Source: Drancourtella massiliensis
GTDB taxonomy: Bacteria > Bacillota > Clostridia > Lachnospirales > Lachnospiraceae
Assembly: GCF_016900655.1 (NCBI RefSeq)
Contig: NZ_JACJKH010000001.1
Location: 154,668 to 218,667, forward strand
Direction: 5' to 3'
DNA: 64,000 bases
This document shows, in pieces, positions 13,548 to 29,817 of the stretch (the first letter of the stretch is position 1; each line of letters begins with the position of its first letter). Under the pieces are notes generated by a model. That model was not told the DNA's origin. It did no database searches and was given only the letters and a program-made list of their open reading frames with translations. The position numbers and the translations under genes are program-made.

Positions 13548-13577
13548 TTGAAAATTGCGGAGTGGCTAACGTATAAT
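13548..13577 (+). promoter_or_regulatory. Promoter of the polysaccharide locus
   Basis: TTGAAA (13548-13553), 18-bp spacer, consensus TATAAT (13572-13577), about 42 bp before the CpsB start codon. Confidence 0.75.
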
Positions 13578-13618: not shown

Positions 13619-14353
13619 ATGAACCAGTTTGTAGATATTCATTGTCACATTCTGCCGGGGGTGGATGATGGATCCCAGTCTCCGGAAGAAACAAAGGCCA
13701 TGCTGGAGAAAGCATGGGATGAGGGGATACAGATCATGGTGGCGACCCCTCACTATCACAAGCAGAGAGGGAAAAATGATATCGATCTGATCAAGAAACA
13801 GTTGCTCCTGACTCGAAAGCTTGCAAAGGAAGTTCACCCGAAGATGCAGATCTGTCTTGGGATGGAGATTTATTACGGGGAGGATGTCCCGGAGCTTTTA
13901 AAGACCGGGAAAGCAGTGAGCATCAGAAAATCCAGATATATCCTGGTGGAGTTTTCGCCGGGAGACGATTTCCAGTATATCCTGAATGCTGTGAGAAAGC
14001 TTCAAATGAGCGGCCACACCGTTATTATTGCGCACATTGAGCGTTACAACTGCCTGAGAGAAGATATCTCAAACGTAGAATATCTCAGGGAGATGGGGGC
14101 GTATCTCCAGGTGAACGCGGGAAGCATTACAGGAAGTTACGGCAGAAGCGTAAAGAAGTTTCTGCGGGAGGTATTAAAAGCGCATCTTGTCCAGCTGGTA
14201 GGGACAGATGCACATGGTCCGGAGAAGCGGTCACCGAAGATGCAGGAGGCATACAAAGAAGTTGTCAAACGCTGCGGTGAAGAGTATGCGGACCAGATCT
14301 TCGGGCAAAATGCCAAGAAAGTTCTTCGCAATGAAGAGATTGACGAGTACTAA
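13619..14353 (+). CDS. CpsB/YwqE-type tyrosine-protein phosphatase (PHP domain)
   Basis: 244 residues, PHP-fold manganese-dependent phosphotyrosine phosphatase. The metal motif DIHCHILPGVDDG (H8, H10) opens the protein, ATPHYHK and AHIERYNCL follow, and GTDAHGPEKRSP lies near the end. It dephosphorylates the tyrosine cluster of the partner kinase encoded two genes downstream and so controls polysaccharide synthesis and chain length. First gene of the locus after a good promoter; ATTGGAG-type ribosome site 10 bp upstream. Gene order (phosphatase, co-polymerase, kinase) is the standard CpsB-C-D order of Firmicutes. Confidence 0.93.
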   Translation: MNQFVDIHCHILPGVDDGSQSPEETKAMLEKAWDEGIQIMVATPHYHKQRGKNDIDLIKKQLLLTRKLAKEVHPKMQICLGMEIYYGEDVPELLKTGKAVSIRKSRYILVEFSPGDDFQYILNAVRKLQMSGHTVIIAHIERYNCLREDISNVEYLREMGAYLQVNAGSITGSYGRSVKKFLREVLKAHLVQLVGTDAHGPEKRSPKMQEAYKEVVKRCGEEYADQIFGQNAKKVLRNEEIDEY

Positions 14354-14383
14354 ATGAGAATGAATTAGGAAGGTATAGTGTTT

Positions 14384-15160
14384 ATGGAAGGGACAAACCA
14401 GAATGTGAAAGAAAATGATGAGATTACAATAGATCTCACCGAATTGTTTATGACGTTATGGAGCAAGGCACATATTATTATTCTGTCAGGAATCCTGCTG
14501 GGACTTCTGGCATTTGTTGGAACCAAACTTTTTATTACGCCAATGTATACTTCAACAACCCGGTTCTATGTGCTGACCAGAACAACGGACACCGGAAACG
14601 TGACATACAATGATCTGCAGACAGGATCACAGCTGACGAAAGACTATGCGGAACTGGTAAAGAGCCGTCCGGTTCTGGAAGAAGTTATTTCTGTTCTGAA
14701 TCTTGATATGGATACAGAAGAGCTGGCGGATAAGATTACGGTTACCACACCGACAGATACCCGTGTCATGTCCATTAATGTAAGAGACGCCGAACCGAAA
14801 CAGGCAAGAGATATTGCAGATGCGGTACGCCAGGCGGTAGGAATTCAGATTCAGGATATCATGGATGTTGACTCTGTCAAGACGGTAGAGGAAGCGAACC
14901 TGCCGGACAGCCCGAGCAGCCCGAGCGTGATGCGTAATACGCTGATCGGCGCAATTCTCGGAATTCTGATTTCTGCCGGTATTATCATTCTGGTATTTAT
15001 GCTGGACGATACAGTAAAGACACCGGAAGATGTAGAGACATATCTTGGACTGAATGTTCTTGCGTCCATTCCGGTTTATGACGGGGCAAATGCAAAGAAT
15101 AAAAAACGTGTAAAAGGGCTCTCGGCCCGGAATTTCCAGAAAAAAACTGCGAAAAAGTAA
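14384..15160 (+). CDS. Wzz/CpsC-type polysaccharide co-polymerase (kinase activator)
   Basis: 258 residues with an N-terminal membrane helix (about residues 30-50), an extracytoplasmic Wzz domain, the Pro/Ser-rich PDSPSSPS motif before a second helix and a cytoplasmic tail. In Firmicutes this protein is the membrane adaptor that activates the separate tyrosine kinase and sets polymer length. ATG 14384 lies 10 bp after AGGAAGG; a GTG two codons earlier is possible but closer to the site than usual. Sits between the phosphatase and kinase genes. Confidence 0.92.
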   Translation: MEGTNQNVKENDEITIDLTELFMTLWSKAHIIILSGILLGLLAFVGTKLFITPMYTSTTRFYVLTRTTDTGNVTYNDLQTGSQLTKDYAELVKSRPVLEEVISVLNLDMDTEELADKITVTTPTDTRVMSINVRDAEPKQARDIADAVRQAVGIQIQDIMDVDSVKTVEEANLPDSPSSPSVMRNTLIGAILGILISAGIIILVFMLDDTVKTPEDVETYLGLNVLASIPVYDGANAKNKKRVKGLSARNFQKKTAKK

Positions 15161-15178
15161 GGTTTGGGAGGTCTGAAG

Positions 15179-15871
15179 ATGAAAGAAATATCATTAAATT
15201 TAAAGAGTATGCAGGATTACAGAATTAATGAATCCTACAAACAGCTTCGTACAAATATTGAATTCTCCGGAGAGGAAAACAAGATCATTGCAATTACAAG
15301 CTGTACTCCAAGTGAAGGAAAGAGTACGGTATCATTATCAACGGCATACTCTCTTGCAGAAGCAGGGAAAAAAGTTCTTTTTATTGACGCGGATCTTAGA
15401 AAGTCTGTTCTTGCCGGAAGATATAAGGTGACAGGAGAGATGAAAGGTCTGACCCATTTTCTTTCCGGTCAGGGAGATCTTTCTGAAATTCTCTGCAAAA
15501 CAAACGAAAAAGGCCTGTTTGTCATTTTTGCAGGTCCGGTTCCGCCAAATCCGGCAGAACTCCTTGGAAGCAAAAAGTTTGCCGCACTGTTAAAAGAGGC
15601 AAGAAATATTTATGACTATATTATTATCGACACACCTCCGCTTGGAAGTGTTATCGACAGCGCAATCGTGTCCGCAGCATGTGACGCGGCGATTCTTGTT
15701 ATTTCAGCCAATACGATCAGCTACAAGTTCGCGCGTTCCGTAAAGGATCAGCTTACCAAGACAGGATGTAATATTCTGGGAGTTGTTCTCAACAAGGTAT
15801 CCATGAAGCAGAATAAATATTACGGTAAGTATTACGGGAAATATTACGGACATTACGGAAGTGACAATTAA
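15179..15871 (+). CDS. CpsD/YwqD-type tyrosine-protein kinase
   Basis: 230-residue bacterial tyrosine kinase. Walker A SCTPSEGKST (residues 41-50), Walker A' LFIDADLRKS (67-76) and Walker B YIIIDTPPLG are all present. The C-terminal tyrosine cluster is a repeated YYGK unit (KYYGKYYGKYYGHYG), the autophosphorylation site. It lacks its own membrane helices and relies on the preceding CpsC-like protein. Start at ATG 15179, with GGGAGG 7 bp upstream; the TTG at 15164 overlaps that site. Downstream genes follow within 20 bp. Confidence 0.95.
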   Translation: MKEISLNLKSMQDYRINESYKQLRTNIEFSGEENKIIAITSCTPSEGKSTVSLSTAYSLAEAGKKVLFIDADLRKSVLAGRYKVTGEMKGLTHFLSGQGDLSEILCKTNEKGLFVIFAGPVPPNPAELLGSKKFAALLKEARNIYDYIIIDTPPLGSVIDSAIVSAACDAAILVISANTISYKFARSVKDQLTKTGCNILGVVLNKVSMKQNKYYGKYYGKYYGHYGSDN

Positions 15872-15891
15872 TCGATTAGGAGAACGTTAAG

Positions 15892-16650
15892 ATGAGACAA
15901 AGGCTATTAACCCTGTGTCTGATAGCAGGCTGTGCGGTGCTGGTAGCCGGTGCGGCCGTTATCACTGCTTCACAGGATAAAACAGCACCGGTCATCACGA
16001 TCGAAGACAAAGAGAAAGAAATCACCTACAAAGACGGAGACAATTATGAAGAACTCCTCGCTGACGTAACTGCCGAAGACAACCGGGACGGCGATGTAAC
16101 AGACAAGATCTTTATTGACAAAATTACAGTAGTAAGCGACGGAAGCCGGGCGATTGTTCAGTATGCGGTGATTGATGAGCACAATAACGTCGGAACCGAA
16201 ACGCGAATGGTCAACTACGAGGGAACTGGTCAGACGGAGCAAAACGTCGGCCAACCGGAAGCAGAGGAACCGTCCCAGGAAGAGGAAGCGCAGACAGAGG
16301 AAGATACTTCAGAGGAAACTTCAGAGGATGAACAGGCAGCACAGGAACAGGCTTCCGCTGAGGAAACACAGGAGGAAAATACCGGAGAACTGACACCGGA
16401 CGGGGCAAATCCGGCAATCCGTCTCACGGAGACGTCCAGATCAATCCGTGCAGGAGAATCATTTGACGTCCTTTCCGTGATTGACCAGGTGGTGGATGAC
16501 CAGGACGATGCGGCGACATTATCCAGAAGAATTCACGCGGACGGAGAGTACAATACATCCGTTCCGGGTACATATACAATTCGCTACTATGTGATGGATA
16601 CGAACAATAATACATCAAATATTGAAGAGTTTACATTGACTGTACAGTAG
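15892..16650 (+). CDS. Membrane-anchored Ig-like (DUF5011-type) protein
   Basis: 252 residues: an N-terminal hydrophobic segment (about 5-27), an Ig/cadherin-like domain with APVITIEDKEKEITYKDG and TAEDNRDGDVTDK (about 30-115), an acidic Glu/Gln/Thr-rich linker (about 118-165) and a second Ig-like domain with IDQVVDDQDD and YVMDTNNNTSNIEEF. The sequence IAGC in the signal resembles a lipobox, but the hydrophobic run continues beyond it, so a plain membrane anchor is as likely. Both domains match the pattern of DUF5011 repeats found in cell-surface proteins. It lies between the tyrosine kinase and the LCP gene, which suggests a wall-facing role in the glycan system. Function is not known. Confidence 0.8.
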   Translation: MRQRLLTLCLIAGCAVLVAGAAVITASQDKTAPVITIEDKEKEITYKDGDNYEELLADVTAEDNRDGDVTDKIFIDKITVVSDGSRAIVQYAVIDEHNNVGTETRMVNYEGTGQTEQNVGQPEAEEPSQEEEAQTEEDTSEETSEDEQAAQEQASAEETQEENTGELTPDGANPAIRLTETSRSIRAGESFDVLSVIDQVVDDQDDAATLSRRIHADGEYNTSVPGTYTIRYYVMDTNNNTSNIEEFTLTVQ

Positions 16651-16668
16651 GTAAAAGGAGTGATAAAA

Positions 16669-18162
16669 ATGCCGCAGAGAAGAGAGCAGAGGGAACGCAG
16701 GAGACATCATGGCCGCCGCGGTTCCCGGCATTACGACGAGAAAAAAGGGAGAAATACTCTCGGAAAAGTGATTGCAGTAATTCAGCTTCTGATTTCTGTG
16801 ATTTTTGTCGGTATCTTATTTAACAGTGGAATGATTCCGATGAAGTATCTGGCAGCAGGAGCTGTTGTGCTTCTGCTGTTGTTCGCCCTCACATTTGGAA
16901 TGCAGTATATCAGGAACAAAATTCATATTGTGGGGATTGTACTGAGTATTCTGATCAGTGCCGCACTTGCTTTCGGAACCTATTACTTTATGAATATGCA
17001 TCAGGCAATCAGTAATATCGGAGGAGCTGAGTATAAAACCGACAATATGATCGTTGTGGTCAAAAAGGAAGACAGCGCGGAGTCGATTCTGGATGCGCAG
17101 AATTATATTTTCGGAGTTCAGACGGCCGCTGATCAGACAAACAACGAAAAAATGATTACCAAGCTTTCCACACTGATCGGACAGGAGCCGAATGTGTCGG
17201 AGTTCAATACTGTTCAGGAGGAAGCACAGGCCCTTCTGGATGGTAGAATTGAGGCGGCTATCTATAATGAGGCATTCAACAGCCTGATTACAGACGAGAT
17301 TGAAGGATATGAAGATCAGGTTCGTATTCTGTATCAGTATGGAATTGATACAAAACTGGAAAAGGTAGACCAGAGCGTGACAGAACCGTTCAATGTCTAT
17401 ATCAGCGGAATCGACGTATACGGTCCGATTTCCACAAACAGCCGAAGTGATGTGAATATCATCGCAACAGTGAATCCGGAAACACGCCAGGTGCTTCTGA
17501 CAACAACGCCGCGTGACTACTACGTGACACTTCCGGGAGTTTCCGGAAACCAGCGGGACAAACTGACTCATGCCGGAATTTATGGAGTGGATGTTTCCAT
17601 GGCAACACTGGAACAGCTTTACAATACCGACATCAATTACTACGCGAGAGTGAACTTTACCTCACTGATTGAAATTGTCGATACACTTGGCGGAGTCGAC
17701 GTCAATTCCGAGTATGCTTTTGAAGCGGGAGGATATTCTTTCCAGCAGGGTGTGAACCATTTAAACGGGAAACAGGCACTTGCCTTTTCAAGGGAGCGTC
17801 ACAGCTTTGCTTCCGGTGATAACCAGCGGGGAAAGAATCAGGAAGCCGTGATCACAGCAATTATCAACAAGATGCTGACACCATCCATGCTTACGAAAGC
17901 TATGGATATTGTAAAAGAGCTTGACGACTGTGTAGAAACGAACGTATCTATGGATCAGCTTTCAAAATTGATCCAGATGCAGCTCAATTCAGGCGGCAGC
18001 TGGAGTATCCTGACCGACAATGCGATCGGAACAGGAGACAGCAATACTTGTTATTCATCCGGAAGCCAGATGCTGTATGTCATGAATCCGAATGAGGTTT
18101 CTGTAAACAGTATTTCAAGCAAGATTAACCGGATTTTAGGCGGGGAAAAAATTACACAGTAG
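16669..18162 (+). CDS. LytR-CpsA-Psr (LCP) family glycopolymer ligase
   Basis: 497 residues. A strongly basic N-terminus (RREQRERRRHHGRRG) is followed by three membrane helices, an accessory extracytoplasmic domain and the LCP domain (about 250-440) with SRSDVNIIATV, TTPRDYYVTLPG and the arginine-rich FSRERH...NQRGKNQEAV segment that binds the polyprenyl pyrophosphate in the family. LCP enzymes transfer undecaprenyl-linked glycopolymers to peptidoglycan. The start ATG 16669 lies 8 bp after AAAGGAG; an in-frame GTG overlaps it. Position inside the polysaccharide locus indicates that it attaches this polymer to the wall. Confidence 0.92.
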   Translation: MPQRREQRERRRHHGRRGSRHYDEKKGRNTLGKVIAVIQLLISVIFVGILFNSGMIPMKYLAAGAVVLLLLFALTFGMQYIRNKIHIVGIVLSILISAALAFGTYYFMNMHQAISNIGGAEYKTDNMIVVVKKEDSAESILDAQNYIFGVQTAADQTNNEKMITKLSTLIGQEPNVSEFNTVQEEAQALLDGRIEAAIYNEAFNSLITDEIEGYEDQVRILYQYGIDTKLEKVDQSVTEPFNVYISGIDVYGPISTNSRSDVNIIATVNPETRQVLLTTTPRDYYVTLPGVSGNQRDKLTHAGIYGVDVSMATLEQLYNTDINYYARVNFTSLIEIVDTLGGVDVNSEYAFEAGGYSFQQGVNHLNGKQALAFSRERHSFASGDNQRGKNQEAVITAIINKMLTPSMLTKAMDIVKELDDCVETNVSMDQLSKLIQMQLNSGGSWSILTDNAIGTGDSNTCYSSGSQMLYVMNPNEVSVNSISSKINRILGGEKITQ

Positions 18163-18199
18163 AAAGCTGTGGAAATAAAAAAATGAGGAGTAAAGTGTT

Positions 18200-20092
18200 A
18201 TGAGGAAATGGATGGCAGATAAGCTGTTTCTGTATCATTGGGTACGTATCTCAATCTTACTGTTTATCTATGATGTAATTGTAATGAATGTGTCTTACGG
18301 GCTGGCGTTATGGCTGAGATTTGATTTCCGCTTCTCGGATATTCCGCCGGAATACCTGTTCACCTGGATCAGGTATATTCCGATTCATACTGTATGCACA
18401 TTGATTCTGATGTTTGCATTTAAACTGTACCGGAGCATGTGGCGGTTCGCAAGCTTTGATGAACTGTCGAGGACCACAATTGTATGCGCGATTTCCATGG
18501 CACTTCATATTGTGGGGACTACCGTGATTTTTCAGAGAATGCCGATTTCGTATTATGTAATGGGGGGAATTCTTCAGTATTTTCTGATTACAGGCATCCG
18601 TTTCTCTTACCGGATTTACCGGATGTTTGTCACAAGGACTTCAGCAGCGGCTGTAGAAGCCAGAGATGTGAAAAATACGATGATCATCGGTGCCGGAGAG
18701 GCCGGCAGGGCAATCATCAGTGAATTTAATAAAAGCGGAGACAAGATGCACACAAGAATCCGCTGTATTATTGACGATAACAAAAACAAAAAGAACCGTT
18801 ATATCGACGGAATTCCGATTGTCGGAACAAGAGAAGATATTCCTGAGATGGTAAAAAAATATCAGATTCAGAAAATTATCTTTGCAATTCCTGCGATTTC
18901 GGCTTCTGAAAAGAAAAATATTCTCGAGATCTGCAAGGAGACGGGATGTGAAATGCAGATCGTTCCGGCTGTCTATCAGCTGGTTAACGGCGAAGTAAAA
19001 GTAAGTTCGATCCGTCCGGTAGAGATCGAAGAGCTTCTCGGACGGGAAAGCATCCGGATGGACCTTGCAGAGATTTCCGGATATGTAAAAGACAAAGTCG
19101 TACTTGTCACAGGAGGCGGCGGTTCCATCGGAAGCGAGCTCTGCCGGCAGATTGCGGCATACGGTGCAAAACAGCTGATTATATTTGACATTTACGAAAA
19201 TAATGCCTATGATATTGAACAGGAGCTGAGAAGGAAATATCCGTCATTAAATCTGGTCGCATTGATCGGATCTGTGCGGGATACCGGATGTCTGGAAAAG
19301 GTATTCTCCACGTATCATCCACAGCTCGTTTTCCATGCGGCAGCACACAAACATGTACCGCTGATGGAGACAAGCCCGAATGAGGCAATCAAAAATAATG
19401 TATTCGGAACCTACAATACTGCAAAACTCGCCAACGAGTACGGTGTAGAAAGATTTGTCCTGATTTCGACGGACAAGGCGGTCAATCCGACCAATATCAT
19501 GGGTGCCAGCAAGAGAATGTGCGAGATGGTCATTCAGATGATGTCACGCCATTCCAAAGGAACCACCTTTGCGGCAGTACGTTTCGGAAACGTACTGGGA
19601 AGCAACGGAAGCGTAATTCCGCTGTTTAAAAAGCAGATCGCAGAGGGCGGACCGGTTACCGTCACACATCCGGATATCATCCGGTACTTCATGACGATTC
19701 CGGAGGCAGTATCCCTTGTGCTGACTGCAGGTTCCTACGCAGAAGGCGGCGAGATCTTCGTTCTCGATATGGGAGAACCGGTCAAGATCCTCGACCTTGC
19801 CACCAACCTGATTAAACTTTCCGGACTGAAACCGGGAGTGGATATCGAAATTAAATTTACTGGCCTCCGACCTGGAGAAAAGCTTTACGAAGAGCTTTTA
19901 ATGGCAGAGGAAGGTCTGCACAAAACAGATAACAATCTGATTTTCATTGGAGAACCGATCGATATGGATGATGATAAATTCCTGATGGAGCTTGCAGAAC
20001 TGAAAGATGCATGCTACAAGGAAGTATCGGATGTCAAAGAACGGGTATCCAGAATCGTACCTACTTATCAGTATAAGAAAAAAGAAAAATAA
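18200..20092 (+). CDS. Membrane nucleotide-sugar 4,6-dehydratase (PglF/CapD-like)
   Basis: 630 residues: four N-terminal membrane helices (about 15-130), a first Rossmann domain with IIGAGEAGRAI, and a C-terminal SDR dehydratase domain beginning at VLVTGGGGSIGSELC. The catalytic region ISTDKAVNPTNIMGASKRM has Met in place of the usual SDR tyrosine (MGASK), as in the FlaA1/PglF group. The predicted reaction is UDP-GlcNAc to UDP-4-keto-6-deoxy-GlcNAc. The product is the substrate for the aminotransferase at 20935, with the transferase at 22204 as the next step. It is the last gene before the LoaP leader. Ribosome site TGAGGAG. Confidence 0.92.
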   Translation: MRKWMADKLFLYHWVRISILLFIYDVIVMNVSYGLALWLRFDFRFSDIPPEYLFTWIRYIPIHTVCTLILMFAFKLYRSMWRFASFDELSRTTIVCAISMALHIVGTTVIFQRMPISYYVMGGILQYFLITGIRFSYRIYRMFVTRTSAAAVEARDVKNTMIIGAGEAGRAIISEFNKSGDKMHTRIRCIIDDNKNKKNRYIDGIPIVGTREDIPEMVKKYQIQKIIFAIPAISASEKKNILEICKETGCEMQIVPAVYQLVNGEVKVSSIRPVEIEELLGRESIRMDLAEISGYVKDKVVLVTGGGGSIGSELCRQIAAYGAKQLIIFDIYENNAYDIEQELRRKYPSLNLVALIGSVRDTGCLEKVFSTYHPQLVFHAAAHKHVPLMETSPNEAIKNNVFGTYNTAKLANEYGVERFVLISTDKAVNPTNIMGASKRMCEMVIQMMSRHSKGTTFAAVRFGNVLGSNGSVIPLFKKQIAEGGPVTVTHPDIIRYFMTIPEAVSLVLTAGSYAEGGEIFVLDMGEPVKILDLATNLIKLSGLKPGVDIEIKFTGLRPGEKLYEELLMAEEGLHKTDNNLIFIGEPIDMDDDKFLMELAELKDACYKEVSDVKERVSRIVPTYQYKKKEK

Positions 20093-20186
20093 CAAAGTCG
20101 TTTTGGACTTGAAAATATCTTAACCAAATCAAATCGTCGCTTTGTCGCGTTTGAATGGGAAAGTGGTCATTATGGAATATCGTGAT

Positions 20187-20210
20187 TCACCCGGAAAAGC
20201 GTCCGGGTGA
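20187..20210 (+). promoter_or_regulatory. Conserved-looking RNA hairpin in the loaP leader (candidate LoaP target)
   Basis: TCACCCGGA / TCCGGGTGA form a perfect 9-bp stem with a 6-nt loop AAAGCG. It stands 7 nt before the leader terminator and is not followed by a U-tract. LoaP proteins are known to recognise an RNA hairpin in the 5' leader of their target operons, so this is the obvious candidate; assignment is inference. Confidence 0.5.
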
Positions 20211-20216
20211 AATGGC

Positions 20217-20271
20217 GAAGCATACCCTTTTTACTTTCATGATTTGGAAGTGAAAAGAGTATGCTTTTTTC
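20217..20271 (+). terminator. Intrinsic terminator upstream of loaP
   Basis: AGCATAC..CTTTTTACTTTC pairs with GGAAGTGAAAAG..GTATGCT (one internal mismatch and a few G-U pairs), loop about 7 nt, then TTTTTT at 20265-20270. The stem is about 19 bp. It lies between the dehydratase gene and loaP. Confidence 0.85.
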
Positions 20272-20357
20272 ATGCAGAATATTTCAAAAAAGCGACTTCC
20301 CTCACAATTTAATGAAATGAAATACGACAAGGCCTCATTTGAAGAAAGAGGACTTCT

Positions 20358-20870
20358 ATGTGGTATGTAGTACAGGTACGCACAGGTACCGAGGAAGAGA
20401 TCATCACACAATGTGAAAAAACGATCGATCACGGGATTTTAAAGCGCTGCTTTATCCCTTACTATGAATCAATGAAGAAGTACAAAGGAGAATGGCATCT
20501 GGAGCAGAAAATTCTGTTTCCAGGATACGTTTTCATGATTACAGACGAAATGGAACAACTGTATCTTGGCCTGAAAAATGTGATCGGCCTTACAAAGCTG
20601 ATCGGGACAGGACGGGAAATCATTCCGCTAAAACAGGAGGAAGTAGACTTCCTGACCGAATTTGGAAAAGAAAAACAGGTTGTTGAGATGTCAACCGGGA
20701 TCATTGAAAACGGCCGGATCCGGATCACCGATGGCCCATTGAAAGGACGCGAAGCCATGATCCGCAAAATCGACCGGCATAAGCGAAAAGCAAGCCTTGA
20801 GATCCCGATGTTCGGGAGAATCCTGGAGACCCAGGCAGGTCTGGAAATTATAGAAAAAATTGAAAAATAA
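20358..20870 (+). CDS. loaP: LoaP-type NusG paralogue (transcription antiterminator)
   Basis: 170 residues with an N-terminal NGN domain opening with WYVVQVRTGTEEE and containing PGYVFM, and a C-terminal KOW domain with GRIRITDGPLKGREAMI. Short NusG paralogues of this type (LoaP in Firmicutes, UpxY/RfaH functionally elsewhere) bind RNA polymerase and suppress termination within long polysaccharide or antibiotic operons. Context agrees: terminators stand immediately upstream (20217-20271) and downstream (20881-20907), and a long glycan operon follows. The housekeeping nusG would be longer-conserved and next to secE, which is not seen here. Ribosome site AGAGGA. Confidence 0.88.
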   Translation: MWYVVQVRTGTEEEIITQCEKTIDHGILKRCFIPYYESMKKYKGEWHLEQKILFPGYVFMITDEMEQLYLGLKNVIGLTKLIGTGREIIPLKQEEVDFLTEFGKEKQVVEMSTGIIENGRIRITDGPLKGREAMIRKIDRHKRKASLEIPMFGRILETQAGLEIIEKIEK

Positions 20871-20880
20871 AGGAAAAACA

Positions 20881-20907
20881 GTCTGGAAAAACTTCCGGGC
20901 TTTTTTT
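20881..20907 (+). terminator. Intrinsic terminator between loaP and the glycan cassette
   Basis: GTCTGGAA / TTCCGGGC form an 8-bp stem (two G-U pairs) with a 4-nt loop, followed by seven T residues (20901-20907). The next start codon is 28 bp away, so polymerase must pass it to reach the cassette, a natural point of LoaP control. Confidence 0.75.
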
Positions 20908-20934
20908 AGTGGAAAAAAAGAGGAGTGAGGGAAG

Positions 20935-22194
20935 ATGAGTAAGAAGATGGAACCATTTTCATCAAAGGTATGGCTTTCCAGTCCGACCATGCACGGCCCG
21001 GAACTGGAGTATGTAAAAGAAGCATATGAAACCAACTGGATGTCAACCGTTGGGGAAAATATTAATGAGACAGAACGGCTTGCCTGTGAAAAAGTCGGCT
21101 GTAAGTATGCGGTGGCATTATCAGCCGGAACAGCAGCACTTCATATGGCGGTGAAGCTGGCAGGAGTAAAGCCGGGAGATAAGGTGTTATGCTCAGATAT
21201 GACATTTGATGCCACGGTGAATCCGGTTGTTTATGAAGGCGGTGTTCCGGTATTTATCGATACAGAGTACGACACCTGGAATATGGATCCGGTGTCCTTG
21301 GAAAAAGCGTTTGAACTCTATCCGGAAGTAAAAGTTGTTGTTGTAGCACATCTTTATGGAACACCGGGAAAAATCGATGAAATCCGGGAAATTTGTGACC
21401 GACATGGCGCAGTTATTATTGAAGATGCCGCAGAATCTCTCGGAGCAACCTATAAAGGTGTCCAGACTGGAACTTTTGGAACGTATAACTGCATTTCCTT
21501 TAATGGAAACAAGATTATCACAGGATCATCCGGAGGAATGCTTCTGACAGATGATGAAGAAGCAGCAAAGAAAGTGCGGAAATGGTCTACTCAGTCCAGA
21601 GAAAACGCACCGTGGTACCAGCATGAGGAACTGGGATACAACTACCGGATGAGTAACGTGATTGCAGGAGTGGTCAGAGGACAGTTCCCATACCTGGAGG
21701 AACATATCGCACAGAAGAAAGCAATTTATGAGAGATATAAAGAAGGCTTCAAAGACCTTCCAGTGAAAATGAATCCATATGATGAAGAAAACAGTGAGCC
21801 GAACTTCTGGCTGAGCTGTATAGTAATCGATCCGGAAGCTATGTGCAAGCAGGTACGGGGAGAACAGGAAGCACTGTATATCAGTGAGCCGGGAAAGAGC
21901 TGTCCGACAGAGATCCTGGAAACACTGGCATCCTATAACGCAGAAGGACGTCCGGTATGGAAACCGATGCACATGCAGCCGATTTACAGGATGAACGGAT
22001 TTGTCACAAGAGAAGGAAATGGACGGGCAAAGACCAATGCCTATATTGCAGGGGGAACCGTAGGACAGGATGGAAGACCGCTGGATGTGGGAATGGATAT
22101 CTTTCAGAGGGGACTGTGTCTGCCGAGTGATAATAAAATGACGGTGGAAGAGCAGGAGAAAGTGATCGAGATTGTGAAGGGATGTTTTGAGTAG
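20935..22194 (+). CDS. DegT/DnrJ/EryC1 aminotransferase (PglE-like)
   Basis: 419-residue PLP-dependent sugar aminotransferase. The cofactor lysine is K193 in SFNGNKIITGSSGG, and VIIEDAAESLGA holds the aspartate that contacts the pyridine nitrogen. Closest in pattern to enzymes that aminate UDP-4-keto-6-deoxy-GlcNAc (PglE/PseC-type with SFNGNKIIT). Substrate would come from the dehydratase at 18200. Product: a UDP-4-amino-4,6-dideoxy-N-acetylhexosamine. It overlaps nothing and is followed 9 bp later by the phosphoglycosyl transferase gene. First gene after the second terminator. Its base composition is like the upstream genes, not like the AT-rich cassette. Confidence 0.88.
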   Translation: MSKKMEPFSSKVWLSSPTMHGPELEYVKEAYETNWMSTVGENINETERLACEKVGCKYAVALSAGTAALHMAVKLAGVKPGDKVLCSDMTFDATVNPVVYEGGVPVFIDTEYDTWNMDPVSLEKAFELYPEVKVVVVAHLYGTPGKIDEIREICDRHGAVIIEDAAESLGATYKGVQTGTFGTYNCISFNGNKIITGSSGGMLLTDDEEAAKKVRKWSTQSRENAPWYQHEELGYNYRMSNVIAGVVRGQFPYLEEHIAQKKAIYERYKEGFKDLPVKMNPYDEENSEPNFWLSCIVIDPEAMCKQVRGEQEALYISEPGKSCPTEILETLASYNAEGRPVWKPMHMQPIYRMNGFVTREGNGRAKTNAYIAGGTVGQDGRPLDVGMDIFQRGLCLPSDNKMTVEEQEKVIEIVKGCFE

Positions 22195-22203
22195 GTGTCT
22201 GAT

Positions 22204-22833
22204 ATGAGAAGAAGAAAAGGATTTTATGAGGCGTGCATAAAAAGACCACTGGATTTTGTATGTGCGTTAGGTGGAATTATTGTATTAAGTCCGGTGTTGT
22301 TGATCACAGCAGGACTTGTAAAAATCAAGCTTGGAAGTCCGGTGATTTTCAAGCAGGAACGGCCTGGAAAAGGAGAAAAAATTTTTGAACTTTACAAGTT
22401 TCGCACCATGACAGATGAAAGAGATATAAATGGCGATTTACTTTCCAATGAAGAAAGAATGACAGTATTTGGAGAGAAATTAAGGCGTACAAGTTTAGAT
22501 GAACTTCCGGAGTTGTTTAATATATTGAAAGGTGATATGAGTATTATCGGGCCGCGTCCATTACTTACAAAATATTTGCCCTTATATAATAGTGAACAAA
22601 GGAAACGTCATTTAGTTAGACCTGGTTTAACAGGTCTTGCCCAAGTAAATGGCAGAAATCATTTGTCCTGGGAAGAAAAATTTAAATTAGATACATTATA
22701 TGTAAAAAAGTTATCTTTTAGAATGGATGTTCAAATTTTTCTAAAAACAATTGCAACTGTTTTAAAAAGAGAAGGAATTACTAGTGAAACGTCTGTGACA
22801 ATGGAACCATTTGAAGGAAACAACAATCAGTAG
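22204..22833 (+). CDS. Polyprenyl-phosphate sugar-1-phosphate transferase (PglC-like)
   Basis: 209 residues, small monotopic phosphoglycosyl transferase that starts glycan assembly by moving a sugar-1-phosphate from UDP-sugar to undecaprenyl phosphate. It has one membrane-associated helix (about 17-38, VCALGGIIVLSPVLLITAG) and the family core KQERPGKGEKIFELYKFRTM, RTSLDELPELFNILKGDMS, GPRPLL and RPGLTGLAQVNGRN. The D-E pair of SLDELPE is the catalytic dyad. Start ATG 22204 is 6 bp after AGGTG; a GTG at 22195 lacks a site. Base composition changes from GC-moderate to AT-rich within this gene (around 22400-22600), which may mark a recombination point. Confidence 0.92.
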   Translation: MRRRKGFYEACIKRPLDFVCALGGIIVLSPVLLITAGLVKIKLGSPVIFKQERPGKGEKIFELYKFRTMTDERDINGDLLSNEERMTVFGEKLRRTSLDELPELFNILKGDMSIIGPRPLLTKYLPLYNSEQRKRHLVRPGLTGLAQVNGRNHLSWEEKFKLDTLYVKKLSFRMDVQIFLKTIATVLKREGITSETSVTMEPFEGNNNQ

Positions 22834-22896
22834 TTAATGTGATCCTTTGGATGGCATTTACTATATATTTTCACAAAAAGGAAAGGAAGTAAAGAA

Positions 22897-23136
22897 ATGA
22901 GTAATTTAGAAAAGTATCAGAAAATTTTTATGGATTTATTTCAGGTAGAAAAAGAGGAATTAAATGAGTCCTTTTCATTTGCAGGAGAGGAAAGATGGGA
23001 TTCAGTGACACACTTATCATTAATTGCAGAATTAGAAGATACATTTGGAATTATGTTTGAGACAGATGACATTCTGAATTATGGGTCGTATTTAAATGGA
23101 ATCAATATCTTAAAAAAATATGGAGTTGAGTTTTAA
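22897..23136 (+). CDS. Acyl carrier protein-like protein
   Basis: 79 residues with the carrier protein motif WDSVTHLSLIAELEDTFGI, so S36 is the expected phosphopantetheine site. It is followed 11 bp later by an SDR reductase and then an acyl-activating ligase, so it is a dedicated carrier for a small acyl group and not the housekeeping fatty-acid ACP. The likely use is acylation of a sugar amine in the same cluster (inference). Ribosome site AAGGAAG. Confidence 0.87.
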   Translation: MSNLEKYQKIFMDLFQVEKEELNESFSFAGEERWDSVTHLSLIAELEDTFGIMFETDDILNYGSYLNGINILKKYGVEF

Positions 23137-23147
23137 GGAGAAAATAA

Positions 23148-23900
23148 ATGAAAACATTATTAGAAGGAAAAGTGGGAATTGTTACTGGATCAGCAAGAGG
23201 TATCGGGGCGATGATTTCCCAATTTTTTGTTGAATGTGGAGCAACTGTTTATGCAAATGATCGAAATATCGAAAAAATGCATGAGTGGATCGAAACATTA
23301 GATAAAGATCTTCAGAAAAATGTAAAACCGATTGAATTTGATATTACAAATTCAGATGAGGTACGGAAAGAAATAATGAAGATAAAACAAGAAAGTGGGA
23401 AAATAGACTTCTTGGTTAATAACGCAGGGATTGAGTTTAATGAATTAATAGGAATGATTTCAAAATCAAATATGGAAAAAATGTTTCAAGTTAATGTATT
23501 TGGAACAATAGAAATGTTGCAGACCGTAAGCAGAATTATGGGACGTCAGGAAAATGGTGGTAGCATTGTAAATATTTCTTCTATGGTTGGGCTTAGAGGG
23601 AATAAAGGTCAACTGGTATATTCTGCTACCAAGGGAGCAGTTATTGCCTTGACTAAATCAGCAGCGAAAGAATTGGCACCTAAAAAAATCCGTGTAAATT
23701 CTATTGCTCCAGGTTTAACCAAGACTGACATGATGGATGCTGCGGATTTGGAAAAACTGCAAAATAGAATTAATAATATTTGTATGGGAAGAATTGCAGT
23801 TCCAAAAGATATTGCAAAAGCCTGTGCTTTTTTTGTTTCCGATTTGTCAGAATATGTATCGGGTCAGGTATTGGCAGTCGATGGCTGTACAATTATGTAG
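23148..23900 (+). CDS. SDR-family oxidoreductase (3-oxoacyl-ACP reductase-like)
   Basis: 250-residue classical short-chain dehydrogenase. Cofactor motif GSARGIGAM near the N-terminus, NNAGIE, catalytic serine in VNISSMVG and the YxxxK pair in YSATKGA, then IAPGLTKTDM and the C-terminal GQVLAVDGC. FabG-like enzymes reduce 3-oxoacyl-ACP with NADPH. With the adjacent ACP it would reduce a short 3-oxoacyl group to 3-hydroxyacyl; a sugar substrate is an alternative. Spacing 11 bp to acp and 12 bp to the ligase. Confidence 0.85.
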   Translation: MKTLLEGKVGIVTGSARGIGAMISQFFVECGATVYANDRNIEKMHEWIETLDKDLQKNVKPIEFDITNSDEVRKEIMKIKQESGKIDFLVNNAGIEFNELIGMISKSNMEKMFQVNVFGTIEMLQTVSRIMGRQENGGSIVNISSMVGLRGNKGQLVYSATKGAVIALTKSAAKELAPKKIRVNSIAPGLTKTDMMDAADLEKLQNRINNICMGRIAVPKDIAKACAFFVSDLSEYVSGQVLAVDGCTIM

Positions 23901-23912
23901 GAGGGAAATAAG

Positions 23913-25319
23913 ATGTTTTTAGATATTGATAAAAAAGATCCGAAAAGAATTGCAGCAGTAGAAGATACAGGGAAGCAAATTACATATGGAGAGCTATGTG
24001 ATTTAAGTAATGAAATAGTCGAAGCCATTCCGGAACGAAGTATTATATTCTGTTTATGTGAAAACACAATTGGAGCTTTGTCAGGATATATTGGTTGTTT
24101 GTCTCATAAAATTGTTCCTCTTTTACTTGCAGCAAATACAGATCAAGAATTACTTGTTAAATTAATCGAGACATATGAACCCCAGTTTTTTTGGTGCCCA
24201 GAAGAGAAAGAATTACCATTACAAACTGAGATGATAATTCAGAAAGCGGGATATAAGCTTGTAAAAACAGAATATAAACAGTATGAAATTAATGAAAAAC
24301 TTTCTCTTCTATTAACGACTTCTGGATCTACAGGAAGTCCAAAGTTGGTTCGATATAAATATGGAAATCTGGAAGCAAATGCAAAAAATGTTGCGAAAGT
24401 ATTTGGATGGACAGAAATGGAAAGACCAGTCATCGATCTTCCTATGCAGTATACGATGGGGCTTAATGTTATCAATACCCATTTATATGTTGGAGCCACA
24501 TTGATTATGACAACTCAGAATTTGGTTAGTAGAGATTTTTGGAACTATATTGAAGAGCAGAAAGCAACAAATTTTACAGGTGTACCTTTTAGCTATGAAG
24601 TATTTTTCAAGTTGAGATTTAATAAGAAGGAATTTCCAACCTTAACTACGTTAGCAGAAGGGGGAGGAAAGCTTACAGATACTATGTTTATGGATCTGGT
24701 TGAATATTCCCAAAAATATAACAAGAGATTTTGTGCGACATTCGGAACTACAGAAACATCAGCGCGACTTGCTTATCTTGATCCAGATAGAGCAAAAGAA
24801 AAATGTGGAAGTATTGGTAAAGCCATTCCGGAAGGTGAACTTTTTCTAATAGATAAGAACGGACAGGAAATCCAAGAGATGGAAGCGGAAGGAGAAATGG
24901 GATATCGAGGACCTAACGTAACAATGGGGTATGGTATTTGTAAAGAAGATCTAAAGTTAGGAGATGTTTGGAAAGGGGAGTATAGAACAGGAGATATTGC
25001 AAGAAGAGACTCTGAAGGATTTTATTACATTATAGGAAGAATTTCTAGATTTTTAAAAATTTATGGTCATAGAATTAGTCTTGACCAGTGTGAAAAATTG
25101 ATCAAGACGAAATTTGCAATTGACTGTGCATGTACAGGTAATGATAAATGCTTGAAAATTTTTATTACAGAAGAGCAGTATTCTAAAGATATATTAAAAT
25201 ATTTAAGTGAAAAACTTCATCTCATGCAGAATGTAATGAAGATATCTGTAATAGAAGCAATTCCTAGAAATGAGTCTGGAAAGATTAAATACGCGGTTTT
25301 GAACAAAATGGAGTTATAA
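23913..25319 (+). CDS. ANL-superfamily acyl-activating ligase
   Basis: 468-residue adenylate-forming enzyme. The P-loop-like motif LLTTSGSTGSPKLVR is at about 133-147, ATFGTTETSARL follows in mid-protein, then YRTGDIARRDSEGFYYIIGR with the adenylate-binding aspartate, and the C-terminal lysine motif ESGKIKY (K457). It activates a carboxylic acid as acyl-AMP and loads it onto a thiol, here probably the carrier protein two genes upstream. The acid is not predictable. The stop overlaps the next start (wzx) by 1 bp (TAATG), showing tight coupling. Confidence 0.87.
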   Translation: MFLDIDKKDPKRIAAVEDTGKQITYGELCDLSNEIVEAIPERSIIFCLCENTIGALSGYIGCLSHKIVPLLLAANTDQELLVKLIETYEPQFFWCPEEKELPLQTEMIIQKAGYKLVKTEYKQYEINEKLSLLLTTSGSTGSPKLVRYKYGNLEANAKNVAKVFGWTEMERPVIDLPMQYTMGLNVINTHLYVGATLIMTTQNLVSRDFWNYIEEQKATNFTGVPFSYEVFFKLRFNKKEFPTLTTLAEGGGKLTDTMFMDLVEYSQKYNKRFCATFGTTETSARLAYLDPDRAKEKCGSIGKAIPEGELFLIDKNGQEIQEMEAEGEMGYRGPNVTMGYGICKEDLKLGDVWKGEYRTGDIARRDSEGFYYIIGRISRFLKIYGHRISLDQCEKLIKTKFAIDCACTGNDKCLKIFITEEQYSKDILKYLSEKLHLMQNVMKISVIEAIPRNESGKIKYAVLNKMEL

Positions 25320-26779
25320 TGGCAAATCAAGATACAACAAAGAAAAAGGTGATTTCCTCTTTAATATGGAAATTTTTTGAAAGAATAGGATATCAGGGAG
25401 TTAATTTTATTGTTCAAATTGTTCTGGCTAGGCTTCTTTTGCCGGAAGACTATGGCATTATTTCGTTACTGATTGTTTTTGTAAATATTGCAAATGCAAT
25501 GATACAAAATGGATTTAATACAGCACTGATTCAAAAAAAAGAAGTAGATGAGATCGACATTTCATCTGCTTTTTTTGTAACATTAGTTTTATCTATTTTT
25601 TTGTATGTTGTACTGTATTTATCAGCACCAGCTATTAGTGATTTTTATAGAATGCCTAAGATGATTCCGGTGTTAAGAGTATTGGCTTTGTTACTTCCGC
25701 TTGGAGCAGTAAACTCGATTCAGATTGCTATTTTGTCTAGAAATCTTCAGTTTTATAAACTTTTGATCAGCAATATGAGTGCAGTTATTTGTTCAGGAAC
25801 GAGTGGAATCATTTTAGCCTATATGGGGGCAGGCGTCTGGGCATTAGTTGTACAGCAGCTCTTTTTCAATCTAATCAGTTGTATTGTACTCTGGTTTGTT
25901 GTCAAATGGAGACCAAGTTTACGATTTTCTATCCAGAGTATTAAAACTTTATTTTCATTTGGATGGAAAATGTTAGTATCAAGATTAATTAATTTGATCT
26001 ACGGAGATATATACAGTCTGGTAATTGGAAGAGTATTTAGTGCGAATGCGCTTGGATATTATAACCGTGGCAAACAGTTCTCATACACAATTATTATGAG
26101 TATTGATGGTGCCATTCAATCGGTAATGCTTCCTGCTTATTCCAGGGAACAAGAGAATAAAAAAATTTTAAAAAGTATGACCAGAAGATCTATTGTAACA
26201 AGTTCGTATGTTGTATTTCCGGTAATGATGGGACTTGGTGTAGTTGCAGGACCACTTGTATCGTTGCTTTTGACGGATAAATGGTTAGGATGTGTTCCGT
26301 TTTTGCAGATTAACTGTTTTATTTATGCATTATACCCTATTCATTCGGCAAATTTGCAGGTGATCTGTGCTATGGGGAAAAGCGAAGTTTATTTAAAACT
26401 GGAAGTTATAAAAAAGATACTTGGGGTTGCAATTATGATTTGTACACTTCCTTTTGGAATATATTGGTTTACTTTTGGTGGTGTGATTACTGGGCTTCTT
26501 TCAACAGTTATCAATGCGTTCCCTAATATAGAATATTTAGATTATTCTATAGCAGAACAATGGAAAGATATATTTCCATCCTTCATTCTTTCAATTGTAA
26601 TGGGAGCGATTGTATATCCGATTCAATTTCTTCCTATTAATAATCTATTTATTTTATTTATCCAGATTATAGTAGGGGTCATTATTTATGTAGGAGCATC
26701 AGCCGTATTTCGATTTGAATGTTTTTATTATTTAAAAAATACAATATTAGACATGATAAGAGGTAAAAAGAAAATATGA
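25319..26779 (+). CDS. wzx: Wzx-type oligosaccharide flippase
   Basis: 486-residue polytopic membrane protein of the MOP superfamily (polysaccharide_synt type), with about 12-14 hydrophobic segments. Opening sequence KVISSLIWKFFERIGYQGVNF and VLARLLLPEDYGIISLL are typical of this exporter class. It would move the undecaprenyl-linked repeat unit to the outer face for polymerisation by the Wzy-like protein at 28533. Starts in the stop codon of the ligase gene and overlaps the next gene by 4 bp. AT-rich like its neighbours. Confidence 0.92.
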   Translation: MANQDTTKKKVISSLIWKFFERIGYQGVNFIVQIVLARLLLPEDYGIISLLIVFVNIANAMIQNGFNTALIQKKEVDEIDISSAFFVTLVLSIFLYVVLYLSAPAISDFYRMPKMIPVLRVLALLLPLGAVNSIQIAILSRNLQFYKLLISNMSAVICSGTSGIILAYMGAGVWALVVQQLFFNLISCIVLWFVVKWRPSLRFSIQSIKTLFSFGWKMLVSRLINLIYGDIYSLVIGRVFSANALGYYNRGKQFSYTIIMSIDGAIQSVMLPAYSREQENKKILKSMTRRSIVTSSYVVFPVMMGLGVVAGPLVSLLLTDKWLGCVPFLQINCFIYALYPIHSANLQVICAMGKSEVYLKLEVIKKILGVAIMICTLPFGIYWFTFGGVITGLLSTVINAFPNIEYLDYSIAEQWKDIFPSFILSIVMGAIVYPIQFLPINNLFILFIQIIVGVIIYVGASAVFRFECFYYLKNTILDMIRGKKKI

Positions 26780-27405
26780 AAGATATTATAATAGTTGGAG
26801 CCGGAAGTGCTGCAAGAGATGTGCTTCAGGTTTTAAAAGAGATTAATAAAGTAGAAAAAAAATGGAATATCAAGGGATTTATAGCGGATTACGGAGTAGA
26901 TATAAAAGCACTGACCAGTGATGAATACGAGATTATCGGAACAATAGAAGATTGGCAGCCGAATGAAAATGAAGAATTTGTATGTGCAGTAGCGGATCCT
27001 GATATTAAAAGAAAATTGATAGGAAAGTTAGAAACGAAGGGAGCCAAGTTTGCCCAAGTTATTCATCCGAATGTAGAGATAAATGATTACTGCAAAATAG
27101 GAAAAGGGGTGATTTTATATCACGATGCTATTTTAGGACCTAACTGTGAGGTCGGAGACTATGTACATACGAACTCTAAAATAGGGCATGACTGCAAGAT
27201 TGGAGATTATAGTACTGTAAGTATTATGTGTGCGGTTATGGGACATGTCACTATGGGACAGGGAGTTTTTGTAGGAGGAGGCGCGACGATTATTCCTGGC
27301 GTAACAATAGGGGATCATGTTTACGTAGGTGCAGGAAGCGTAGTTATCAAAGATATTGAGGAAAACAAAAGAGTTTTTGGAAATCCAGCAAGAGAAATGA
27401 GATAG
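26776..27405 (+). CDS. PglD/VioB/NeuD-type sugar O/N-acyltransferase
   Basis: 209 residues: N-terminal Rossmann-like nucleotide-sugar binding domain (IIVGAGSAARDVLQVL) and a left-handed beta-helix of hexapeptide repeats (from about residue 95), with the catalytic-type histidine in SKIGHDCKIGD and the closing GNPAREM. Relatives acetylate the 4-amino group of UDP- or TDP-4-amino-4,6-dideoxysugars from acetyl-CoA. Because an acyl carrier module lies just upstream, the donor could be an acyl-ACP instead. It directly precedes the aminotransferase likely to make its substrate. ATG overlaps wzx by 4 bp. Confidence 0.88.
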   Translation: MKDIIIVGAGSAARDVLQVLKEINKVEKKWNIKGFIADYGVDIKALTSDEYEIIGTIEDWQPNENEEFVCAVADPDIKRKLIGKLETKGAKFAQVIHPNVEINDYCKIGKGVILYHDAILGPNCEVGDYVHTNSKIGHDCKIGDYSTVSIMCAVMGHVTMGQGVFVGGGATIIPGVTIGDHVYVGAGSVVIKDIEENKRVFGNPAREMR

Positions 27406-27419
27406 TGAGGTAAAGGAAA

Positions 27420-28520
27420 ATGATTAATGTTACAAGATCTTCAATGCCTGAATTTGAAGAATATACGGAAGAAATTAAGAAATTATGGGATACTAAATGG
27501 TTAACAAACAGAGGAGCGATTCACAGAGAATTAGAAGAAAAGTTAAAAAATTATCTTGGTGTTGAAAATATTTCTTTGTTTACCAATGGCCACTTGGCTT
27601 TAGAGACAATTTTAGATGGTTTAGATTTGAAAGGAGAGGTGATTACCACTCCTTTTACTTTTGCATCAACAACGCAGGCTATTGTACGCTGTGGATTAAC
27701 ACCAGTGTTCTGTGACATCAATGAAGACGATTTTACAATAGATATTAATAAAATTGAGTCATTGATTACAGATAAAACCTGTGCAATACTTCCTGTTCAT
27801 GTGTATGGAAATATCTGTAATATTGAGGAGATTCAAAAAATTGCAGATAAATATGGTTTAAAAGTAGTATATGATGCAGCACATGCATTTGGAATAAAAT
27901 ATCGTGGAAAAGGTATTGGGAATTTTGGAGAGGCATCTATGTTCAGCTTTCATGCGACAAAAGTTTTCAATACAATTGAAGGCGGCGCAGTATGCTATCA
28001 CGATAAGAATTTGGGAATAAAAATGGAAAGATTAAAAAATTTCGGAATTGTTGATGAAGATCATATTGACGAAATTGGTGGCAATGCAAAAATGAATGAA
28101 TTTCAGGCAGCAATGGGTGTGTGTAATTTGCGACATGTGGATAATGAGATTGAGAAGAGGAAGCATGTCGTACAAAGATATAGAGAACGTCTGGAGAACC
28201 AAAAAGGAATTAAATTATCTCCAGTACAGGCGGATGTGATTCCAAATTATTCATATTTCCCAGTATTATTTGATGAAGAAGTTTTGGGATATACTAGGGA
28301 TAATATCAGAGATGCTTTAAAAGAACAGGGAATTAATGCAAGAAAGTATTTTTATCCATTAACAAATGAAATTCCAAATTATAGCGAACATTTTAAAATT
28401 CAAGATACTCCTATTGCTTATAAAATTTCACGTCAGGTATTAACATTACCACTATATGCGGATCTTTCATTGAAAGATGTTGATAGAATATGTGATATTA
28501 TTCTTTCCTATCACAATTAA
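27420..28520 (+). CDS. dTDP-4-amino-4,6-dideoxyhexose aminotransferase (VioA-like)
   Basis: 366-residue DegT/DnrJ/EryC1 enzyme. PLP lysine K181 in SFHATKVFNTIEGG and VVYDAAHAFG with the ring-nitrogen aspartate. The opening INVTRSSMPEFEEY and LTNRGAIHRELEE and the SFHATK motif resemble VioA/FdtB-type enzymes acting on dTDP-4-keto-6-deoxyglucose, unlike the first aminotransferase in the locus, which has SFNGNK. The substrate can be made by RmlA and RmlB (46916, 45872). Product is dTDP-Qui4N or dTDP-Fuc4N; the WecF-like glycosyltransferase downstream favours a 4-amino-4,6-dideoxyhexose. Configuration at C4 is not decided. Confidence 0.82.
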   Translation: MINVTRSSMPEFEEYTEEIKKLWDTKWLTNRGAIHRELEEKLKNYLGVENISLFTNGHLALETILDGLDLKGEVITTPFTFASTTQAIVRCGLTPVFCDINEDDFTIDINKIESLITDKTCAILPVHVYGNICNIEEIQKIADKYGLKVVYDAAHAFGIKYRGKGIGNFGEASMFSFHATKVFNTIEGGAVCYHDKNLGIKMERLKNFGIVDEDHIDEIGGNAKMNEFQAAMGVCNLRHVDNEIEKRKHVVQRYRERLENQKGIKLSPVQADVIPNYSYFPVLFDEEVLGYTRDNIRDALKEQGINARKYFYPLTNEIPNYSEHFKIQDTPIAYKISRQVLTLPLYADLSLKDVDRICDIILSYHN

Positions 28521-28532
28521 GGGAGTGAAAAA

Positions 28533-29816: not shown

Positions 29817-29817
29817 A

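Follow-up and report, generated by a model that had tools for sequence, protein, structure and literature searches.

The window, by which we mean the whole 64,000-nucleotide stretch of Drancourtella massiliensis DNA that was analysed, holds a surface-polysaccharide operon with a loaP gene in mid-operon. The genes ahead of loaP form the predicted upstream part of its operon, and the run is closed by a Polysacc_synt_2 protein of 630 aa. Behind loaP, the glycan cassette starts with a DegT-type aminotransferase and a Bac_transf sugar transferase, also includes an SDR protein, and ends with a gene (30906–35729) whose 1607-aa product contains an NlpC/P60 domain and 23 repeats of the choline-binding type. 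The features referred to below are:

13548–13577, + strand: promoter-like site TTGAAA-18-TATAAT ahead of cpsB (consensus match only, 11/12)
13619–20092, + strand: CpsB/CapC, Wzz, AAA_31 ATPase, Ig-like, LytR-CpsA-Psr and Polysacc_synt_2 genes (open reading frames, Pfam)
19185–19213, + strand: second promoter-like site, inside the gene for the 630-aa protein (consensus match only, 11/12)
20117–20232, + strand: conserved leader RNA element, match to covariance model R1 (89.1 bits)
20129–20154, + strand: P1 hairpin, stem UCAAA/UUUGA, core UCGUCGC-UUU-GUCGCG (covariation in 18 sequences)
20159–20174, + strand: linker with conserved GUCAU(U)A, 5' arm of the predicted helix P3 (predicted fold; 18-sequence alignment)
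20186–20211, + strand: P2 hairpin, 10 bp, loop AAAGCG (sequence, fold)
20212–20221, + strand: invariant 3' box AUGGCGAAGC (alignment; RAGATH-28 consensus)
20217–20271, + strand: intrinsic terminator ahead of loaP (22-bp stem and U run)
20221–20231, + strand: predicted 3' arm of P3, CAU-ACC-CUUUU (growing-transcript folds, prediction only)
20358–20870, + strand: loaP, encoding a NusG paralog of 170 aa (NF033641; Pfam NusG and KOW)
20880–20907, + strand: terminator separating loaP from the glycan cassette (9-bp stem and U run)
20935–35729, + strand: glycan cassette, into which LoaP is predicted to allow read-through (open reading frames, Pfam)

The site at 13548–13577 is a candidate operon promoter, which would place the gate about 6.5 kb into the operon. 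In the region as a whole, 23 promoter-like sites were found where 15.1 are expected, and by the same consensus scan the + strand has none from 20093 to 20357. A terminator-like 10-bp hairpin with a T run, at 30047–30069 inside one of the cassette's coding frames, is a possible read-through site; terminator-like sequences around it occur at chance level.

The identification of the protein as LoaP in a first-pass annotation of this DNA is borne out by a score of 179.1 bits against NCBIfam NF033641 (antiterm_LoaP, cut-off 125), while the RfaH equivalog model gives 39.6 bits, under its cut-off of 144.5. Membership in the LoaP family also agrees with the position of the gene next to a long biosynthetic operon, here the glycan cassette. 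The closest named LoaP loci are in metagenome-assembled genomes titled Lachnospiraceae bacterium (64%) and Clostridia bacterium (61%). In E. lenta, too, loaP has been reported in the neighbourhood of capsule loci (PMC13174815). With the window protein as query and a threshold of E ≤ 1e-25, 58 LoaP matches were found in 36 of 397 genomes of the family to which the window belongs; 30 of the 58 were taken up at once as sibling loci, the others were added later. The genome of the window (G000) carries further, tandem LoaP-like genes at two contig ends, three on C45 (G000:C45:600-2300, L009) and two on C88 (G000:C88:172590-173790, L008). Each array is followed by a PglD-like frame, identified by Pfam (PglD_N) on C45 and by eye only on C88, and a GGCGAAGC box precedes the last LoaP-like gene in both.

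Both terminators that the first-pass annotation had placed around loaP were recovered. The 22-bp stem at 20217–20271 folds with −26.9 and z −8.5, and none of 200 shuffled sequences folds as well; its 5' arm overlaps the final 5 bases of the box. The second, originally given as 20881–20907, begins one base earlier and is the weaker of the two, though still a plausible terminator (−13.7, z −3.4, 1 of 200 shuffles as good). A simple scan of both strands from 19000 to 22000 gives 5 terminator-like sites, with 2.8 expected. Among 27 loci, the window counted, 10 have a terminator-like hairpin 3' of loaP, whereas 2.1 are expected from shuffles. We also looked for hairpins with a U run located 8 to 150 nt downstream of the first base of the box, with the post-box sequence shuffled as control; such hairpins are found at 23 of 48 chromosomal elements against 7.25 expected, and at 17 of 30 phage elements against 9.5, where the excess is modest.

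The sequence ahead of loaP holds a conserved leader element of about 105 bases, composed of the P1 hairpin, a linker, the P2 hairpin and the 3' box. P2 is the hairpin that had been noted previously as a 9-bp stem at 20187–20210; it is real, with a perfect stem (20186–20195/20202–20211) that is one pair longer, and the segment 20178–20218 folds with −22.3 kcal/mol and z −5.5, matched by none of 200 shuffles. Folded alone, the P1 hairpin of the window is only modestly beyond its shuffles (−5.1, z −0.8). A UNCG hairpin was absent from 20001–20400, and P1 of the window is not of the UNCG type. The box has a single match in the whole window at up to one mismatch, where chance would give 3.6. At gathering score, no Rfam family matches in the window or in 10 sibling loci.

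Conservation of the element was evaluated on 18 sequences, the window among them, which were aligned with MAFFT without guidance and which also make up the covariance model R1. The box TGGCGAAGC is identical in all 18, as well as in the RAGATH-28 consensus discussed below, and most of the P1 core is invariant or nearly so; the siblings have the P1 core UCGUCGC-NUYG-CCGCG, and GUCAUA in the linker. Taken as one structure, P1 and P2 pair in 82.5% of alignment cells, compared with 36–48% in slid controls. For the outer seven pairs of P1 the value is 86.9% (slid controls 23–53%), and all seven are changed on both sides in one sequence or another. P2 pairs in 71.1% of cells (slid controls 35–54%), where some of the loss is due to alignment shifts. 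The comparison with sibling loci therefore upholds the earlier hairpin as regards its place, which is kept in most siblings, and not as regards its sequence, since both stem and loop vary freely among siblings with P1 core and box in common. The claim that LoaP binds at this hairpin is not supported as worded, because it is the P1 core and the box that are conserved. Pairing between UCGUC in P1 and GGCGA in the box is possible in 18 of 18 sequences. As both partners are almost invariant, such pairing gives no covariation test, and the box and loop variants examined are without compensating change; we regard a P1–box pseudoknot as a hint.

In modelled folds of the growing window transcript, the linker (20159–20174) pairs with 20221–20231 to form helix P3, which the terminator later displaces. 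P3 uses as its 3' arm bases that also belong to the terminator's 5' arm, so that in the model the two are mutually exclusive, and P3 may represent a possible built-in antiterminator. Across 49 elements, P3-like pairing is stronger with the element's own linker than with swapped linkers (mean −8.6 versus −7.8, permutation p 0.005), although it is clear only in a subset of elements and the window itself ranks poorly, with 33 of 48 swaps doing as well. A general role of P3 as a terminator stem formed by linker and post-box sequence was rejected on the same grounds.

A search of the 397 family genomes with R1 gave 49 matches in 40 genomes at E ≤ 1e-3. LoaP and the element occur together in 29 genomes, LoaP only in 7 and the element only in 11, whereas 3.6 joint occurrences are expected by chance; 7 of the 36 LoaP-carrying genomes thus have no element at all. 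The element lies on the same strand and within 2 kb at 32 of the 58 LoaP matches, including all 15 of the best-scoring, and the 26 without an R1 match in that range are mostly more distant LoaPs. Around the LoaP genes of L042, L043, L048/L146, L050 and L057/L144, as well as L142, L143, L147, L148 and L149, neither an R1 match nor an exact box was present within 900 bases, or as far as the locus sequence extended.

Seen from the element, a LoaP-like gene, detected with our own LoaP profile, lies on the same strand within 2 kb of 38 of 51 element matches (the family matches and two named loci). The first sequences behind R1, the window and its siblings, were gathered via LoaP, which favours this association; of the 29 matches that lie outside the model training set and do not run into a contig end, 20 are LoaP-adjacent. 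LoaP is downstream of the element in 29 of the 38 LoaP-adjacent copies and upstream only in 9, and in L101, L140 and L009 one LoaP gene follows the element while another lies directly upstream of it. In these counts, the LoaP of L122 rests on protein and model matches, an overlapping frame having masked it in the gene calls; that of L139, whose frame overlaps the element, is taken as downstream, and L137, which is cut 170 bases 3' of the element, is taken as upstream only. One genome (G297, L102) has two elements, at 8336–8522 and 9253–9361, flanking a single loaP before and after.

For four of the copies without LoaP (L095, L096, L100 and L141) a contig end lies behind the element, within 260 bases of it; this hints that the assemblies break at this point, perhaps because the cassettes are repeated or variable. 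For nine others (L097, L098, L099, L103, L104, L106, L107, L110 and L113) a contig end is not the reason that LoaP is missing within 2 kb; L110 and L113 are probably false matches, and the L103 element precedes a sugar transferase gene. In a sample of 398 genomes from the phylum, R1 matches occur in six, three of them outside the family, and of these three only G758 has an exact box. Its two element-like copies (L209, G758:C8:1-20000), 1.4 kb apart on the − strand with boxes near 7219 and 8614, have a P1 that ends in UUCG and precede genes for a polysaccharide exporter of the ABC type (ABC2_membrane, Wzt_C); the 20 kb contain no LoaP. They look to be the only real copies found outside the family. 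The Paenibacillus LoaP loci L027 and L028 have no R1 match and no convincing UNCG hairpin near loaP.

Under permissive Rfam settings, the full model of the orphan RNA RAGATH-28 (RF03052, positions 1–85) matches the window at 20132–20221 with 29.7 bits, below the gathering score of 45.3 (E 0.00095 for a search of 191 bases). The sibling L036 reaches 25.4 bits; when 17 sibling loci were searched together (67 kb), no RAGATH-28 match came up at E ≤ 1. The layout is nevertheless the same, with a 5' hairpin, a CAUA linker, a variable second hairpin, the 3' sequence AUGGCGAAGC and a LoaP-like gene alongside. Of the 397 family genomes, four have a RAGATH-28 match at E ≤ 0.01; in one the match is above gathering, and it is flanked by a LoaP-like gene on one side and a gene for a terminase large subunit on the other. 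The LoaP-like protein at this site scores 115.1 bits against NF033641, just under the cut-off of 125, and matches PHROGs family 6386, transcription antiterminator.

When viral contigs were searched with this phage-type protein, 15 loci were found, and in all 15 the box follows the matched gene by 96–161 nt and P1 has a UNCG loop; the 10 that were scanned are all RAGATH-28 above gathering. In L150, L151 and L152 the box reads GGCGUAGC instead of GGCGAAGC, with no obvious compensating change in P1. A converse search by RNA pattern, in which we set the letters of P1 and left the N of UNCG free, returned 40 stretches, 37 of which have an adjacent LoaP-like gene, 25 on contigs new to the protein search and 12 on contigs already found. 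In 36 of the 37, the LoaP-like gene ends at the element or up to 263 nt before it; in L168 it comes after. Of 13 scanned, 11 pass RAGATH-28 gathering, the exceptions being L168 and L181. The three stretches that have no LoaP (L165, with only 380 bases of upstream sequence, L170 and L176) match neither Rfam nor R1, and are taken for chance. R1 finds the element in all 28 phage loci presented to it (22 picked for the box, 6 by protein), the E values running from 5e-9 to 0.046. In 6 of 6 loci tested, the large gene behind the element encodes a terminase large subunit, called by Pfam in L199 and L183 and by PHROGs in L058, L172, L169 and L167; Pfam gives nothing for three of the latter and a sub-cut-off match for L167.

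P1 of RAGATH-28 reads GG-UU-GA-UNCG-UC-CC, a UNCG tetraloop over a UU bulge; among 29 distinct copies of the pattern, N is U 22 times, G 4 times and A 3 times. In 27 aligned phage copies P1 pairs in 85% of cells, and five of eight pairs are changed on both sides. The phage LoaP-like protein is matched in 6 of 50,697 records of named phages, all under 60% identity. Type II hammerhead ribozymes are present on some contigs with the RNA pattern, one in L179 and two each in L181 and L183. In the open-access literature searched we found no function assigned to RAGATH-28, and no report joining it or a similar leader to LoaP.

The more distant copies of the element retain the box and differ in the P1 core. 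The common core is present in 24 of 37 LoaP-adjacent copies and other cores in 13, and LoaP sequence distance correlates with P1-core distance (Mantel r 0.70, p 1e-4, 37 pairs), a correlation that could reflect shared descent. The two types meet in the window genome, where the window copy has the common core, and the copy among the C45 LoaP-like genes a different one.

Among known systems, the dfn and mln operons of B. velezensis share with the window a LoaP-family NusG paralog, a small RNA hairpin followed by an intrinsic terminator, and a long biosynthetic operon (PMC12691694). The comparison with the dfn leader relies on its published description. Unlike that leader, the window element is about 105 nt long, has a pair of hairpins and an invariant box at its 3' end, and is intergenic and followed by loaP instead of forming part of the 5' leader of the operon it targets, so that autoregulation is predicted. 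Of the features of the dfn type, the window has the downstream intrinsic terminator (20217–20271) and lacks the UNCG hairpin, which is seen instead in the phage RAGATH-28 copies. Compared with the RAGATH-28 P1 apex (UU-GA-UNCG-UC), the window has UCGUCGC-UUU-GUCGCG, and while RAGATH-28 is found at phage terminase genes, the window element is part of a host polysaccharide operon. RfaH of Gram-negatives is a NusG paralog that is recruited by a cis signal, ops, and opens long surface-polysaccharide operons (a system discussed in PMC12691694). The window resembles RfaH/ops in having a NusG paralog, a proposed cis signal and a surface-polysaccharide operon, but the RfaH signal is DNA, whereas structure conservation in the window points to RNA, and LoaP acts on intrinsic terminators. 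EAR, the eps-associated RNA of Bacillales, is a leader-type RNA for antitermination of exopolysaccharide operons (PMC12691694 cites it), and is similar in that respect; we know of no LoaP associated with it, and at gathering score EAR has no match in the window.

From the sequence comparisons, we consider it likely that the leader recruits LoaP and thereby promotes read-through of both terminators flanking loaP into the glycan cassette. Transcription would start at the promoter-like site before cpsB, in which case expression of the upstream genes would not need LoaP, and loaP and the cassette would be subject to the gate; it may instead begin nearer, at 19185–19213. LoaP would contact the nascent RNA at the apex of P1, at the box or at both, and load onto the passing polymerase, to counter NusA-helped termination as B. 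velezensis LoaP is reported to do (PMC12691694). Because P2 is variable and the P1 core and box are conserved, contact at P1 and/or the box is more likely than at the P2 loop. B. velezensis LoaP is reported to bind a UNCG-type RNA hairpin (PMC12691694), the type in which P1 of RAGATH-28 ends; as the window P1 is not of this type, recognition there would differ in detail. Since the 3' arm of P3 is shared with the terminator, an element stabilised by LoaP could also block the terminator directly. The leader precedes loaP itself and autoregulation is therefore predicted; positive feedback, seeded by basal read-through, would follow from this gene order, and does not necessarily produce the bistable capsule expression proposed in the first-pass annotation. 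Its antitermination circuit is right in outline, as a LoaP-linked leader with terminators, but that annotation overlooked P1 and the box. The autoregulation it postulated agrees with the majority of chromosomal copies, but is not obligatory, in view of the copies with LoaP upstream only and the gene order in the phage loci.

The invariance of the box, which is common to RAGATH-28, could also mean that LoaP is recruited much as RfaH is by ops, through a signal in the non-template DNA or a pause signal, with the hairpins only setting pausing. RfaH uses DNA, and the LoaP study left possible a LoaP–DNA contact inside the polymerase complex (PMC12691694). We find this unlikely, since P1 shows two-sided covariation in both the chromosomal and the phage set, of which a pure DNA signal has no need, and since B. 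velezensis LoaP, which binds an RNA hairpin, has only low-affinity, non-specific binding to single-stranded DNA (PMC12691694). That P2, and P2 alone, is the recruitment site is quite improbable. P2 is very stable, adjoins the terminator and has a counterpart at the same place in most siblings, but its stem and loop differ freely where P1 core and box are shared, and its loop is not UNCG.

A leader that serves another factor or ligand, such as an attenuator, a riboswitch or a ribosomal-protein site, and merely travels with loaP-containing capsule and phage late operons, would account for copies without a nearby LoaP, including the two before the exporter operon in G758 and that before the sugar transferase in L103. 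Such copies may equally be targets in trans, a LoaP-like gene is the common neighbour in phage and polysaccharide loci, and the type of P1 tracks the type of LoaP; we hold this explanation to be highly improbable. Recruitment of LoaP by the leader RNA, our preferred reading, extends to the phage loci in that we lean towards regarding RAGATH-28 and the Lachnospiraceae-type leader as one superfamily of LoaP-loading RNAs, serving as an antitermination switch for phage late operons and as a switch for glycan cassettes in gut bacteria.

The cis element that accompanies LoaP is now defined in a lineage different from that of the dfn and mln systems; it shows covariation, varies along with the type of LoaP and is captured in a searchable model. 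RAGATH-28 obtains a concrete, testable partner in the adjoining phage LoaP-like NusG, with terminase downstream. If the superfamily is real, the phage LoaP-like NusG and RAGATH-28 would constitute an equivalent of lambda N or Q built on NusG, an orphan RNA would gain a function, and gut bacteria would use the same RNA–protein pair for their glycan cassettes, with loaP placed behind its own gate.
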